This document shows positions 14,319 to 27,011 of a stretch of 37,363 nt of DNA, in pieces. The notes beneath the pieces were generated by a model. The model was given only the letters and a program-made list of their open reading frames with translations, made no database searches and was not told the DNA's origin. Every line of letters begins with the position of its first letter. Position 1 is the first letter of the stretch. The DNA comes from Acidobacteriota bacterium (GTDB taxonomy: Bacteria > Acidobacteriota > Vicinamibacteria > Vicinamibacterales > CAVVIG01), in assembly GCA_003222395.1 (NCBI GenBank), contig QHWB01000070.1:1-37363 (forward strand), given 5' to 3'. A program made the translations under genes and the position numbers.

Positions 14319-14341
14319 ATGCGTCCTCCTGACTAGATCCG

Positions 14342-14365
14342 GGGGGTTCGCCCCCGCGAACCCCC
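14342..14365. repeat. GC-rich intergenic element with 10-bp stem-loop
   Basis: GGGGGTTCGC (14342-14351) and GCGAACCCCC (14356-14365) form a perfect 10-bp stem with a CCCC loop, only 24-47 bases before the TonB-receptor start. Adjacent sequence up to about 14440 is also extremely GC-rich and contains a GGGGGCCCC block. There is no T-run. It could attenuate transcription between fucosidase and receptor or be a mobile REP-like element. Confidence 0.6.
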
Positions 14366-14485
14366 TACGCCGTCCGCTCGCGGGGGCCCCGATCCCCGCT
14401 CCGCGCCGGCGGGCGCGCCCGTGGCGCTCCTAGCGACGTGCGGCTGCGGACGTCGTCGTTGTCGCGCCCAGTTTGGTTGGCTGGA

Positions 14486-20982: not shown

Positions 20983-23823
20983 ATGGCACGCTATGTCGGC
21001 GCAGTTCTTCTCGTCATCCACCTGACAATCACCGCCGCCGCCGCACAGACGGTCAGCGCGACCACGGGCGCCATAGACGGTCGGGTCACCGACAACACCA
21101 ACGCGGTGCTGCCCGGTGTGACGGTGACCGTCAGCGGTCCCGCCATGATGGGCACTCGAATCGCCACGACGAACGAACAGGGCGCGTATCGACTCCCGGC
21201 CGTGCCGCCCGGCGACTACACCGTCGTCTTTACGCTCGACGGATTCGCGCCGCTCACGCGGAAGGAAATCCGCGTCGATCTTGGCTTCACGGCAACCCTC
21301 AACGTGCAGATGTCGGTCGGCGCCGTCGAAGAAAACGTCACCGTCACCGGCGCGTCCCCGGTCGTCGACGCCGCGTCGACGAAGATCACGACGACGTTCG
21401 ACGCGCCGCTGCTGGCGAGCCTGCCAAGCGGCAGCCGCGATTACTGGGCGCTGCTCTCCGAGACGCCCGCCTTGAAGCTGACGCGCGTCGACGTCGGCGG
21501 CAGTGCCGCGGGATCGCAATCGAATTACTACGCCTACGGCACGACCGGCCAGAACCGCCCGATGATCGAGGGGATCAATTCGACGCAAGGAACCGAACGC
21601 TTCGGCAATTACCCGGACATGGGCTCGTTCGAGCAGATCGCCGTGAACGCCGCGGCGCACACCGCCGAGATGGCCGTGCCGGGGATCCAGATGATCTTCA
21701 TCAGCAAGTCGGGCGGCAACACGTATCACGGATCCGCGACGGCGCACTACGAGAACGAGCGGTGGCAATCGTTCAACATCGACGACGACCAGATCGCGCG
21801 CGGCATCACCAGCGGCGGCGGACTGGAGCCGCGCGACGTCAACCGGCTTCACCGCTTCCGCGACACGAGCGCGGATCTGGGCGGATACATCGTCAAGGAT
21901 CGCTTGTGGTGGTACGGAGCAGTGCGCGATTTGGAGACCGAAGTGCGGCTGCCGAACTTCGCGATCAAGCCGTTCGTCACGCGGTTGACGACGTATACGG
22001 GGAAGGCGACCTATACGCTGTCCAAGAATACGAAGCTCGTCGGATACATCGAGCGGAACACGAAACACCAGCCCAATCGACTGGATGCGTTTGCCTTGGG
22101 ATTGACGGGCATCTTCACGTCGGAGGACGCGTCGTTCGATCAATGGTTGTACCCGCGCATCTACAAAGGCGAAGTGAACACGGTCGTCGGCGACGCGCTG
22201 TTCTTCGAGGCTCGCGCCGGCCAGTACGGATTCGATTGGCCCGATACCAACTACACGGCTGCGCCACGGTACGAAGACCTGGGAAACAATCTGGTCTCCG
22301 GCTCCTCGCGGTGGCGCGAGCTCGACATCCGCCGCAACCAGGTGCTCGGATCGGTGAGCTACTTCAGGAATGGCTGGCTCGGCGATCACAACTTCAAGAT
22401 CGGCTGGGAGATTTTCCGCGATACGACCGACCAGACCGAGCGAACCGGATCTTTTGGGGACGTCGTCCAGATTCTTCGCAACGGCAGTCCGCTCGACGTG
22501 TACCTGCTCGGCAACCCGACACGGTCGGTCAACGGGCTGTGGACCTATGGCGCCTACGTGAGCGATGTGTGGCGGCCGACCAGGCGATTGAGTCTCAACG
22601 TCGGTCTGAGATTCGATCGCTATCGAAATTTCCTGCCGGCGCAAGTCCACGAGGCCGATCGATTCAATCCTGTCGCCGCGGTGTTTCCGGCCGTCGACGA
22701 CTTGAATATCTGGAACACCTTCGCGCCGCGCATCGGCGCGACGTTCGATCTCCTGGGAAACGGCAAGACGATGCTCAAGGCGAACTACGGGCGCTACTGG
22801 TGGAATCCTGGCGCCGACTTCAGCGCGACCGCCAATCCCAATCCGCCGGTCTGGCAGCGCCGCCACATGTGGACCGACCTGAACAGCGACCGGGTGTGGC
22901 AGCCGGGCGAAGAAGGACGTTTGATTTCGTCGCTGGGCGGCGTCGCGAGCTCCGCGATCGATCCGAATCTCGAAGACACGCGAACCGAGGAAGTCGCGTC
23001 GTGGATCGAGCGCGAGGTGGCGGCGAACTTCGGCATCCGCGGCGGCTTCGTGTGGCGAACGGAACGGCAACTGTACCAACTGCTGAACGCCAATCAGCCG
23101 TTCGCGGCGTTCAACGTCGCCAGAACGGTCCCCGATCCCGGTCCGGACGGCATCGTCGGCAACCTCGACGACGGTCCGGCGATTGGTGCGTGGAACCTCG
23201 CGGCCGACTACCTGTCGCTGCCGGTCAGGAACGTCCTGATGAACGTGCCGGATGCCACGACCAATTACTACACGTGGGAGATCACCGCGACCAAGCGCAT
23301 GAGCCACGGCTGGTCCGCGATCGCGTCGCTCGCCCGTACCACCAGCTACGCGCAGGCCAACACGTTCTTCGACACCAGCTTCCGCCAGAATCAGCTTCCG
23401 ATCACGCCGAACGATCTGATCAACACCGAGCCCAACGGGCAGGAGAAATCGAGCGATCTCTCGGCCAAGCTGAATGCGTCGTGGCAGGGGCCGTGGGGAT
23501 TGAAGATCAGCCCGATCTACCGGTTCCAGAGCGGCCAGAATTTCGGCCGGACGATCGTCGCGTCGCTCAACTACGGCAACGTGCGCATTCCCGCCGAACC
23601 GCTGAACGCGCGGCGACAGGACAACGTGTCGCTGGTCGACGTGCGAATCGAACGGGTGACGAACGTCCGCAGCGCGCGCCTCTCGCCGTTCATCGACGTC
23701 TACAACCTGACCAATGCGAATCCGATTCAGAACACCAGCTGGAGCTCCGGCAATTCGTTTCTGCGACCGCTCGCGATCGTGCCGCCCCGGGTGTGGCGCA
23801 TTGGCGCAAAGCTCGATTGGTGA
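20983..23823 (+). CDS. TonB-dependent receptor, Oar/SusC-like with carboxypeptidase-regulatory domain
   Basis: 946 residues from the ATG at 20983, selected because AGGAGG precedes it and a signal peptide (ARYVGAVLLVIHLTITAAAAQ) follows. The longer in-frame ATG at 20920 lies inside the heptamer repeat. Residues about 28-110 are a carboxypeptidase-regulatory domain ('GRVTDNTNAVLPGVTVTVSGP...GAYRLPAVPPGDYTVVFTL'). Then come the plug-like segment ('VTVTGASPVVDAASTKITTTF') and a long barrel with 'FGNYPDMGSFEQIAVNAAAHTAEMAVPG', typical of acidobacterial receptors, ending 'VWRIGAKLDW'. The terminal Trp fits an outer-membrane barrel. It probably imports a carbohydrate handled by the adjacent oxidoreductases. 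It differs from the receptor at 11352, so different ligands are likely. Confidence 0.92.
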   Translation: MARYVGAVLLVIHLTITAAAAQTVSATTGAIDGRVTDNTNAVLPGVTVTVSGPAMMGTRIATTNEQGAYRLPAVPPGDYTVVFTLDGFAPLTRKEIRVDLGFTATLNVQMSVGAVEENVTVTGASPVVDAASTKITTTFDAPLLASLPSGSRDYWALLSETPALKLTRVDVGGSAAGSQSNYYAYGTTGQNRPMIEGINSTQGTERFGNYPDMGSFEQIAVNAAAHTAEMAVPGIQMIFISKSGGNTYHGSATAHYENERWQSFNIDDDQIARGITSGGGLEPRDVNRLHRFRDTSADLGGYIVKDRLWWYGAVRDLETEVRLPNFAIKPFVTRLTTYTGKATYTLSKNTKLVGYIERNTKHQPNRLDAFALGLTGIFTSEDASFDQWLYPRIYKGEVNTVVGDALFFEARAGQYGFDWPDTNYTAAPRYEDLGNNLVSGSSRWRELDIRRNQVLGSVSYFRNGWLGDHNFKIGWEIFRDTTDQTERTGSFGDVVQILRNGSPLDVYLLGNPTRSVNGLWTYGAYVSDVWRPTRRLSLNVGLRFDRYRNFLPAQVHEADRFNPVAAVFPAVDDLNIWNTFAPRIGATFDLLGNGKTMLKANYGRYWWNPGADFSATANPNPPVWQRRHMWTDLNSDRVWQPGEEGRLISSLGGVASSAIDPNLEDTRTEEVASWIEREVAANFGIRGGFVWRTERQLYQLLNANQPFAAFNVARTVPDPGPDGIVGNLDDGPAIGAWNLAADYLSLPVRNVLMNVPDATTNYYTWEITATKRMSHGWSAIASLARTTSYAQANTFFDTSFRQNQLPITPNDLINTEPNGQEKSSDLSAKLNASWQGPWGLKISPIYRFQSGQNFGRTIVASLNYGNVRIPAEPLNARRQDNVSLVDVRIERVTNVRSARLSPFIDVYNLTNANPIQNTSWSSGNSFLRPLAIVPPRVWRIGAKLDW

Positions 23824-24026
23824 GCGCCTGCGGCCACGCCGACGGCCGGCGCGCGCGCAGCGCGAAGCCGGGGAGGCGTCACGGATCAAGCGCGTGGGGG
23901 TACAGGCCCCACGCGCAAGTGAAAGAGCGCCTGCGGCCACGCCGACGGCCGGCGCGCGCGCAGCGCGAAGCCGGGGAGGCGTCACGGATCAAGCGCGTGG
24001 GGGTGGGGCCCCACACGCAAGTGAAA
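23822..24026. repeat. 103-bp tandem duplication with internal hairpins
   Basis: Copy 1 (23822-23924) and copy 2 (23925-24026) are nearly identical, both starting GAGCGCCTGCGGCCACGCC and ending GCAAGTGAAA. They differ mainly in the hairpin loop: copy 1 has GCGCGTGGGG (23890-23899) pairing with CCCCACGCGC (23907-23916), while copy 2 has a shorter, mismatched version. The array begins in the TonB-receptor stop codon and ends 14 bases before the next gene start. Short open frames cross it, but none is convincing. Confidence 0.92.
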
Positions 24027-26180: not shown

Positions 26181-27011
26181 ATGGCGAGCGAGTGTGAAGT
26201 ATCGCGGCGCGCGTTTGTCGCCGGAGTGTCCGCTTTCGTCTTCGGCGCGTGGACCGATCCACCGGCGGTCACGAAGCGCGTCGAGAAGCTGTACAAGATC
26301 GCCGGCTGCAGGCAGCCCAACGATCTTCAGTTCGTCGCGGAGCGGGGCGAAGGGGTCCCCGCGCCGCGCGTCCGGGGGGCAGGGGCCCCCGGAGTAAGCA
26401 ACGCCTTGTGGGTGCTCGATCAGGTCGATCCCAACAAAGCGTTCGAGGTGCGCCCCGAAGACGGCTCGATCATTCAAGAGCTGCAGACCGAATCGATTCA
26501 CGGCAGCGGCATCACGTACGGCAACGGCGCGCTGTGGATCTCGTCGACGAAGATGGCGGATCCGAAGATGCCGCCCCGGACGTTGAAGGTCGATCCGAAG
26601 AGCGGCAAGACGCTGAAGTCGTGGGTGACGCCGGGATCGGGCCTGTACGGAAAAATCACGCCGAAGTCGACGCCGTCCGGCGCGCACGGATTGAAGTGGG
26701 TGGACGGCAAGTACTGGATGGCCGTTCCGGCTTCCGGAAAACTGTTCCTCATGGAACCAGAGACGGGAGAGATCGTTCGATCGATTCCGGCGCCGGGCGT
26801 CCGGACGCATGGCCTCGCGTGGGACAACGGTTTTCTGTGGTGCGTCGAGTCGGACGGACGCGTGATCTACAAGCTCGATCCATCCAACGGCCGAGCGCTC
26901 GAGCGGATCCAGCTGACGCGCGAGGATCCCGAGCCGCACGGCCTCGACATCCACGACGGCGTCTTGTGGTACTGCGACGCCGCGAGCGGTTGGATTTGTC
27001 GGCTCGTCTAG
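26181..27011 (+). CDS. Tat-exported beta-propeller (NHL/SMP-30-like) protein with in-frame GC-rich insert
   Basis: 276 residues with GGAGG upstream. SRRAFVAGVSAFVFGAW is a Tat signal. From residue about 74 the sequence consists of short repeated units ('NALWVLDQVDPNKAFEV', 'GITYGNGALWISSTK', 'HGLKWVDGKYWMAVPASGKLFLM', 'HGLAWDNGFLWCVESDGRVIYKLD', 'HGLDIHDGVLWYCDAASGWICRL'), a six-bladed propeller of the glutamine-cyclotransferase/SMP-30 style. Residues about 54-73 are Gly/Ala/Arg/Pro-rich and encoded by a palindromic GC block (26345-26396), which interrupts the natural join between 'DLQFVAE' and 'ALWVLDQ'. Role unknown. Co-directional with sugar genes. The insert may lie in a surface loop or damage the first blade. 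Confidence 0.8.
   Translation: MASECEVSRRAFVAGVSAFVFGAWTDPPAVTKRVEKLYKIAGCRQPNDLQFVAERGEGVPAPRVRGAGAPGVSNALWVLDQVDPNKAFEVRPEDGSIIQELQTESIHGSGITYGNGALWISSTKMADPKMPPRTLKVDPKSGKTLKSWVTPGSGLYGKITPKSTPSGAHGLKWVDGKYWMAVPASGKLFLMEPETGEIVRSIPAPGVRTHGLAWDNGFLWCVESDGRVIYKLDPSNGRALERIQLTREDPEPHGLDIHDGVLWYCDAASGWICRLV
26345..26396. repeat. GC-rich palindromic block inserted within the propeller coding sequence
   Basis: GGGGTCCCC at 26352-26360, and CCGGGGG (26372-26378) pairing with CCCCCGG (26386-26392) around a seven-base loop, make two adjacent stem-loops. Similar GGGG/CCCC blocks occur intergenically at 14342-14440. Here the block is translated as about 20 unusual residues without a stop. Confidence 0.6.

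Follow-up and report, generated by a model that had tools for sequence, protein, structure and literature searches.

A dispersed family of short, GC-rich hairpin repeats is present in some uncultured Acidobacteria, with one copy inside a beta-propeller-like gene of the 37,363-nt stretch of DNA analysed here (the window). The repeat is very probably a non-autonomous mobile palindromic DNA element, with a unit of 63 or 30 nt, that inserts into the genes of these bacteria. Its copies are dispersed among unrelated loci, are present in some orthologues and absent from others, favor one frame and strand, and are modular and often tandem in structure. Genomes and loci are given below by working handles (G and L numbers).

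The inserted unit and its host gene

Features of the window are as follows.

26181..27011, plus strand: host gene, beta-propeller-like; open reading frame of 276 residues with weak Pfam matches only
26337..26399, plus strand: long unit, module A plus module B; 63 nt, codons 53-73, delimited by conservation among copies
26337..26369, plus strand: module A, first stem-loop, from folding and conservation among copies
26370..26399, plus strand: module B, the 30-nt short unit, second stem-loop and tail; elsewhere single or tandem
26372..26395, plus strand: exact 24-nt core used as the search pattern, CCGGGGGGCAGGGGCCCCCGGAGT
14341..14402, minus strand: hairpin pair with a module-A-like first half, outside the element; a possible relative, not a copy of the core

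The host protein matches PF21959 (E 6.9e-6) and PF24684 (E 2.4e-4), neither match reaching the curated cut-off, and by eye its N-terminus has the look of a Tat-type signal. The unit comprises 21 codons, AERGEGVPAPRVRGAGAPGVS, with ends taken from inter-copy conservation and uncertain by about one codon. An earlier note on this DNA had drawn attention to a Gly/Ala/Arg/Pro-rich stretch of the reading frame at 26345-26396; the stretch is real, and the unit is slightly wider, at about 26337-26399. The same note's claim of two adjacent stem-loops is borne out by folding the region as single-stranded DNA, which gave just such a pair at -27.1 kcal/mol against a shuffled mean of -20.1 (z -3.0), with 1 of 200 shuffles folding as well. 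Structure prediction of the host protein, run without an alignment, returned a mean pLDDT of 51 and values near 30 around the insert, and so does not inform the fold there.

The core occurs once in the window (shuffled mean 0.00), where no second copy was found, and an Rfam search of the window at gathering scores gave no match. The note had also seen intergenic look-alikes in the window; this holds insofar as the pair of hairpins at 14341-14402 is similar to the unit's first half, and does not extend to a second core. The 32-nt consensus of module A is found at 4 places in the genome of the window (up to 3 mismatches). Separately, a stretch of 80 bases occurs twice, unchanged, at 23822-24004 of the window with a pitch of 103 nt, each copy ending in a GGGG/CCCC hairpin.

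Alignment with orthologues supports the suggestion that the stretch is an insertion. Three orthologues cover the site (G025, 82% identical to the window protein; G032, 73%; and G009), all three lack the insert, reading QFVPDGLWVLDQ or QFTADGLWILDQ, and the residues are accordingly not common to all orthologues. Between QFV/QFT and LW there are 23 codons in the window and 3 in these genomes, a net insert of 20 codons. A further match, in G010, lacks residues 46-122 including the insert site and has a stop in its front part, and was left out of the tally.

Distribution and build of the repeat

The palindromic block does recur in other coding sequences, as the earlier note had anticipated, both in the window's 7.7-Mb genome and in its relatives. 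BLAST of the 141-nt region against that genome returned 21 places including the query itself, and the core pattern, with as many as 3 mismatches allowed, 20 places, against 0 for the reversed-pattern control. Across the taxonomic family the core (up to 2 mismatches) is present in 8 of 27 genomes, the control being 0 in all 27, and counts per genome are 58 (G017), 15 (G000), 9 (G024), 7 (G011), 7 (G016), 6 (G026), 2 (G014) and 1 (G003). At this threshold there are zero copies in G025, whose label places it in the genus of the richest genome. Class-wide, 10 of 193 genomes carry the core (control 0), including two outside the family with one copy each. In one of these (L325, G091) frame 1 of the long form is open across a displayed stretch of 48 codons, and residues that we take to be a Lon-like P-loop follow; in the other (L326, G098) frame 1 is interrupted by stops. 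Among public genomes the exact core was found in 31 stretches, all 31 in records titled Acidobacteria bacterium, in a scan that may omit records of the window's own genome. These metagenome-assembled genomes belong, we presume, to the class Vicinamibacteria. The exact core was not found in viral contigs, and blastn against plasmids and phages gave no match at E 0.01.

For further analysis we defined 93 insertions, made up of the core places of the genome and family searches plus further cores (up to 3 mismatches) in those loci, with cores no more than 130 nt apart counted as one; four BLAST places without such a core (L012, L017, L021, L025) were excluded. Conservation rises at -35 from the core and fades past about +27, and two sharp left ends define a long form (A+B, 63 nt) and a short form (B, 30 nt), with the consensus built from 29 long and 49 short copies. 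Tandem copies run head-to-tail, with cores 27, 30, 33, 63, 64 or 66 nt apart, a distance divisible by three in 18 of 19 cases.

Some copies lie at the edges of genes. Loci L021 and L025 (G000) have a module-A-like hairpin upstream of apparent start codons, followed by a GC-rich stretch, GGAG and ATG; this is perhaps an intergenic relative or the source of module A. Copies in L109, L113 and L119 stand directly before apparent start codons, and in these and in L012 the repeat's tail reaches the apparent start of the next gene, and seems either to provide the ATG or to adjoin it.

Host genes, filled and empty sites

Pfam matches (E ≤1e-8) were obtained for 43 of 50 hand-chosen host reading frames with frame-1 insertions. 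The hosts, essential genes among them, include GyrB (with insertions at two places), a GyrB paralogue, CarB, an ATP synthase subunit (PF00231, gamma-type), acyl-CoA dehydrogenase, a poly(A) polymerase-like protein, an MgsA AAA ATPase, M20 and S9 peptidases, 2-oxoacid dehydrogenase E2, ETF, a sigma-54 activator, radical SAM, a GIDA-family protein, an RNB exoribonuclease, NADH-oxidoreductase chain 6 and MFS, among others; LeuS was assigned via TIGR00396. Some of the domain matches that run across an element exceed the model by roughly one unit length (+10 in L143, +22 in L010, +23 in L019 and L134), and L137, with three long units, exceeds it by 65. Poorer fits to the unit length are +49 (L014), +20 (L023), +15 (L018), +12 (L125) and +7 (L024). 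Aligned to the CarB host, chain 1bxr, which we take to be E. coli CarB, lacks exactly ten residues, RGAGAPGLGD. Chain 1h3n, presumably the T. thermophilus LeuRS, is 20 residues shorter at each of the two LeuS sites and has residues of its own at both.

Filled and empty states were compared in four genes. The GyrB-paralogue site is filled in 2 of 22 aligned genomes (G000, G017) and empty in 20, fragments L293 and L294 being excluded from the alignment; the two copies share the site and the same long-plus-short build, and are of unlike sequence subtypes. At LeuS site 1 the repeat is present in 3 of 23 aligned genomes (G011, G017, G024) and missing from 20, and at site 2 G011 and G017 have it, and G012 has a diverged copy. 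The GyrB N-terminus is filled in G000 and G017 among 19 genomes with that end, and in G025 has a long stretch unlike the repeat. The GIDA-family protein is filled in 2 of 25 resolved genomes (G024, G016), a set outside which G023 and G013 fall. Insertions are thus sporadic, with some sites reused or inherited. We had considered the sites shared by G017 and G000 to be necessarily independent, a copy-free genome being labelled with the genus of G017. This was dropped, as the marker tree (in which G025 is placed by gyrB only) groups G000 and G017 with support of 0.89, so that common descent of the shared sites is possible.

Other translated palindromes were seen at two of these sites. The leuS gene of G006 (L237, 2215-2289) has a different tandem palindrome, VRGARLQADPADPVRGVRLEADPTD, at a pitch of 39 nt, at the LeuS site filled by the repeat in three genomes. 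The loop of the GIDA-family protein (L327-L354; probably TrmFO, judging by its length) between SRW(D/N)RS and DDGxGDYLNC is hypervariable, and in 8 of 25 genomes it contains in-frame hairpins with arms of at least 7, belonging to several dissimilar repeat types. These comprise the 63/30-nt repeat in G024 and G016, GTCCGGCT/GTCCGCCT-type VRLKPD/VRLQADP in G017, G010 and G025, AQDFSPA in G005, QAFRPA in G012, and in G018 a hairpin with tail AAACAATG that is rather like the 63/30-nt repeat. Codon shuffles of these loops matched the hairpin arm in 0 to 28 of 200 cases.

Frame and strand preference

Flanks were classified with a codon-usage score trained on 78 long reading frames (from the window and loci L107-L160) and applied to 240 nt per side with the element masked, more than 0.03 per codon being taken as coding. 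Both flanks code in one frame in 52 of 93 insertions, with the element read in sense frame 1 (RGAGAPG) in 42, frame 2 in 4, frame 3 in 2, r1 in 4, and r2 and r3 in none. The element itself is open in 93, 26, 72, 93, 85 and 83 of the 93 in frames 1, 2, 3, r1, r2 and r3 respectively. The frame-1 share of 42/52 compares with 20.6% expected from open frames (binomial 2e-20; against frame 3 alone, 7e-9), these probabilities being too small because insertions of common descent, including five same-genus pairs, were counted separately. In the remaining 41 insertions the flanks code in different frames on one strand in 13 (12 sense, 1 antisense), on one side in 23, on facing strands in 2 and on neither side in 3. 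The score misses real cases such as the window gene (L001) and the gyrB N-termini, where the left flank crosses the gene start.

Avoidance of stops accounts for the rarity of frame 2, and by itself fails to account for the near absence of frame 3 and the antisense frames. Either tolerance of the peptide is stricter than it appears or insertion is biased to the sense strand. The earlier note had pictured an intergenic repeat jumping into a gene with the frame preserved; the in-frame insertion stands, and the family is not mainly intergenic, as 52 of 93 insertions lie within a single coding frame.

How copies change

In five same-genus orthologous pairs the third positions of the flanks differ at 297 of 976 sites and those of the element's 12 codons at 5 of 60; for the core alone the count is 2 of 35 (Fisher 0.001). 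Six cross-genus pairs each have 2 third-position changes of 12, and 1-5 at each of positions 1 and 2. Core mismatches in 44 genic insertions (the 42 in frame 1 plus L083 and L107, just below threshold) number 9, 10 and 9 at codon positions 1, 2 and 3, and 16 of the 28 fall in the three loop positions 7-9; in the other 49 insertions they number 18, 20 and 13, a test limited by the selection of copies through core similarity. The even spread over codon positions and the clustering in the loop suggest that the repeat is kept as a nucleic acid hairpin and not as a peptide. Slow change of the element relative to synonymous sites could reflect function or gene conversion rather than plain neutrality, and constraint, gene conversion and recent spread all fit the conservation of the hairpin equally.

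Search for a mover

Among single copies, 24 of them long and 55 short, no signal of a target-site duplication was obtained. The scan covered 756 and 1008 boundary/width combinations, with best z of 2.6 and 2.2 that we took as chance, and old copies could have lost such duplications; GAC/GTC at the two element ends is not concordant. Matches to Y1_Tnp, the sole transposase type searched, are present in 18 of 27 genomes of the family. Within flanks of up to 1.5 kb, shorter where a contig ends, no core was found around any of the 29 Y1_Tnp matches, the closest sequence having 7 mismatches. Two carriers, G011 with 7 copies and G003 with 1, lack any Y1_Tnp match. As a positive control, the Y1_Tnp genes of L203, L207 and L212 were each found to be flanked on either side by a GTAG-tagged hairpin. 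A GTAG-tagged REP-like repeat, GTAGTGTCCGCCTTYAGGCGGACC, occurs (up to 2 mismatches) in 505 copies in G014, 307 in G023 and 1 in the window's genome, and its GTCCGGC form, mostly GTAG-tagged, flanks Y1_Tnp genes on both sides.

The tags and tails of known repeats fit poorly. The repeat does not match a GTAG REP, as no tag stands beside the stem of the consensus, 5' side included, its 3' tail reads GTAA in 29, GTGA in 14 and GTAG in 4 of 93, and it flanks none of the Y1_Tnp genes. Nor does it match a CGTC REP, described by a CGTC tag, an AT-initial stem and a CCA-like tail (PMC3733652): CGTC is at the stem start in only 15 of 93 and overlaps the stem, which does not start with AT. An RPE-4-like tail was likewise discarded, ATGAC standing at the matching position in only 4 of 93.

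Explanations and meaning

We favor a mobile palindrome under strong selection after insertion over a sense-biased insertion process. The unit would be moved as DNA by an enzyme acting in trans; its lengths of 63 and 30 nt, both divisible by three, would keep the reading frame, and copies at tolerant sites of proteins, presumably neutral and in surface loops, would be made as protein, as flexible Gly/Ala/Pro/Arg peptides, and retained, while copies in stop-containing frames of needed genes would be lost. Tolerated copies would be translated and kept because the length preserves the frame and frame 1 is free of stops in 93 of 93. It is conceivable, though improbable, that insertion is instead coupled to transcription or RNA, by reverse transcription or through exposed single strands, which would give the near-exclusive sense orientation; the triplet unit length would then mark a mobile element adapted to a life within genes, one that occupies permissive sites (LeuS, the GIDA-family loop) also used by several unrelated translated palindromes of these bacteria.

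The hairpin might have been recruited, with an RNA or DNA structure that has a job in genes (translation pausing, mRNA stability or DNA binding) and is selected at the nucleotide level. The third-position conservation of the core in the five same-genus pairs (2/35 against 297/976, Fisher 0.001) and the sense orientation of 12 of 13 copies even where the flanks code in different frames on one strand would fit. However, the hosts are functionally unrelated, most aligned orthologues do without the element, G025 is free of copies (up to 2 mismatches) despite its genus label, and gene conversion or recent spread would yield equal conservation, and we regard recruitment as unlikely. We give a similarly low probability to the reading that a RAYT (Y1 tyrosine transposase) mobilizes the repeat, which would then be an ordinary REP unusually prone to enter genes. 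REP-like size and hairpin and the Y1_Tnp matches in 18 of 27 family genomes point that way, yet the 5' GTAG tag is missing beside the stem and the 3' tail is GTAG in just 4 of 93, no Y1_Tnp locus has the element although another GTAG-tagged hairpin flanks Y1_Tnp in L203, L207 and L212, two carriers (G011, G003) have no Y1_Tnp match, and REPs are described as mainly intergenic in PMC3733652. Far less credible still is the idea that hypervariable Gly/Ala-rich loops arose by slippage or convergence and merely look like a repeat: some GIDA-family loops (G020, G007) are truly simple repeats, but the nucleotides of the 24-nt core are the same, or almost the same, across unrelated genes and genera with a control of 0, which already refutes it. 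Assembly artefact or contamination has a negligible chance of explaining the family; the named carrier records are all titled MAG, but separate assemblies carry the repeat (prefixes MNEX, JACPZV, JACPZW, MELA, MEKT, MELC) and sites in leuS, E2 and other genes recur in different genomes, with differing sequence.

Selfish palindromes that lie in frame within genes are most familiar from Rickettsia. Under the favored reading of a mobile palindrome, the presence of the repeat in gyrB, carB and leuS of Acidobacteria, one carrier genome being as large as 7.7 Mb, suggests that protein change by palindromes is not tied to genome decay. In these Acidobacteria, protein inserts of 10 or 21 residues may be pieces of mobile DNA. 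The near-exclusive use of one sense frame offers a direct handle on the movement of such elements, and many filled and empty sites are available for experiments.

Comparison with known elements

Our literature search, whose coverage left out most subscription papers, found no description of translated palindromes in Acidobacteria. The repeat shares with MITEs a short, apparently non-autonomous and dispersed nature and a capacity for in-frame fusion; it differs in that no target duplication was found.

According to PMC3733652, REPs lie mostly between genes, with intragenic cases known inside reading frames such as uvrA, recB and tRNA synthetases. Like GTAG/CGTC REPs, the Acidobacteria repeat forms hairpins in the range of 20-40 nt and occurs singly and in groups, some inside reading frames. 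Unlike them, it has no tags or nearby RAYT, its stem does not start with AT, it is more genic than intergenic, and its tandems are head-to-tail.

Rickettsia palindromic elements (RPEs) are described as palindromic repeats in unrelated genes, fused in frame (PMC10969869, PMC2229807, PMC3767692, PMC3733652), with a length of 105-146 bp and a target duplication marked with a question mark (PMC2229807); RPE-4 and RPE-6 are called REP-like (PMC3733652), RPE-4, RPE-6 and RPE-7 carry an ATGAC motif (PMC3767692), and an exposed position is reported in part of this literature for some inserts. Shared with RPEs are the palindromic form, the unrelated loci, the in-frame position in genes with empty orthologues, and the matter of target duplication, uncertain in RPEs and not found for our repeat. 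In contrast, the Acidobacteria repeat is 30 or 63 nt long, GC-rich, present in a 7.7-Mb genome and near-exclusively in a single sense frame, and the named RPE families have Rickettsiales hosts against 31 of 31 Acidobacteria records here. The earlier note had called the insert akin to Rickettsia palindromic elements, which is apt for its behavior (palindromic, in frame, with empty orthologue sites) and not as a statement of kinship. The Acidobacteria repeat is RPE-like in behavior and is set apart from the named RPE families by its host and unit size, with no kinship implied.
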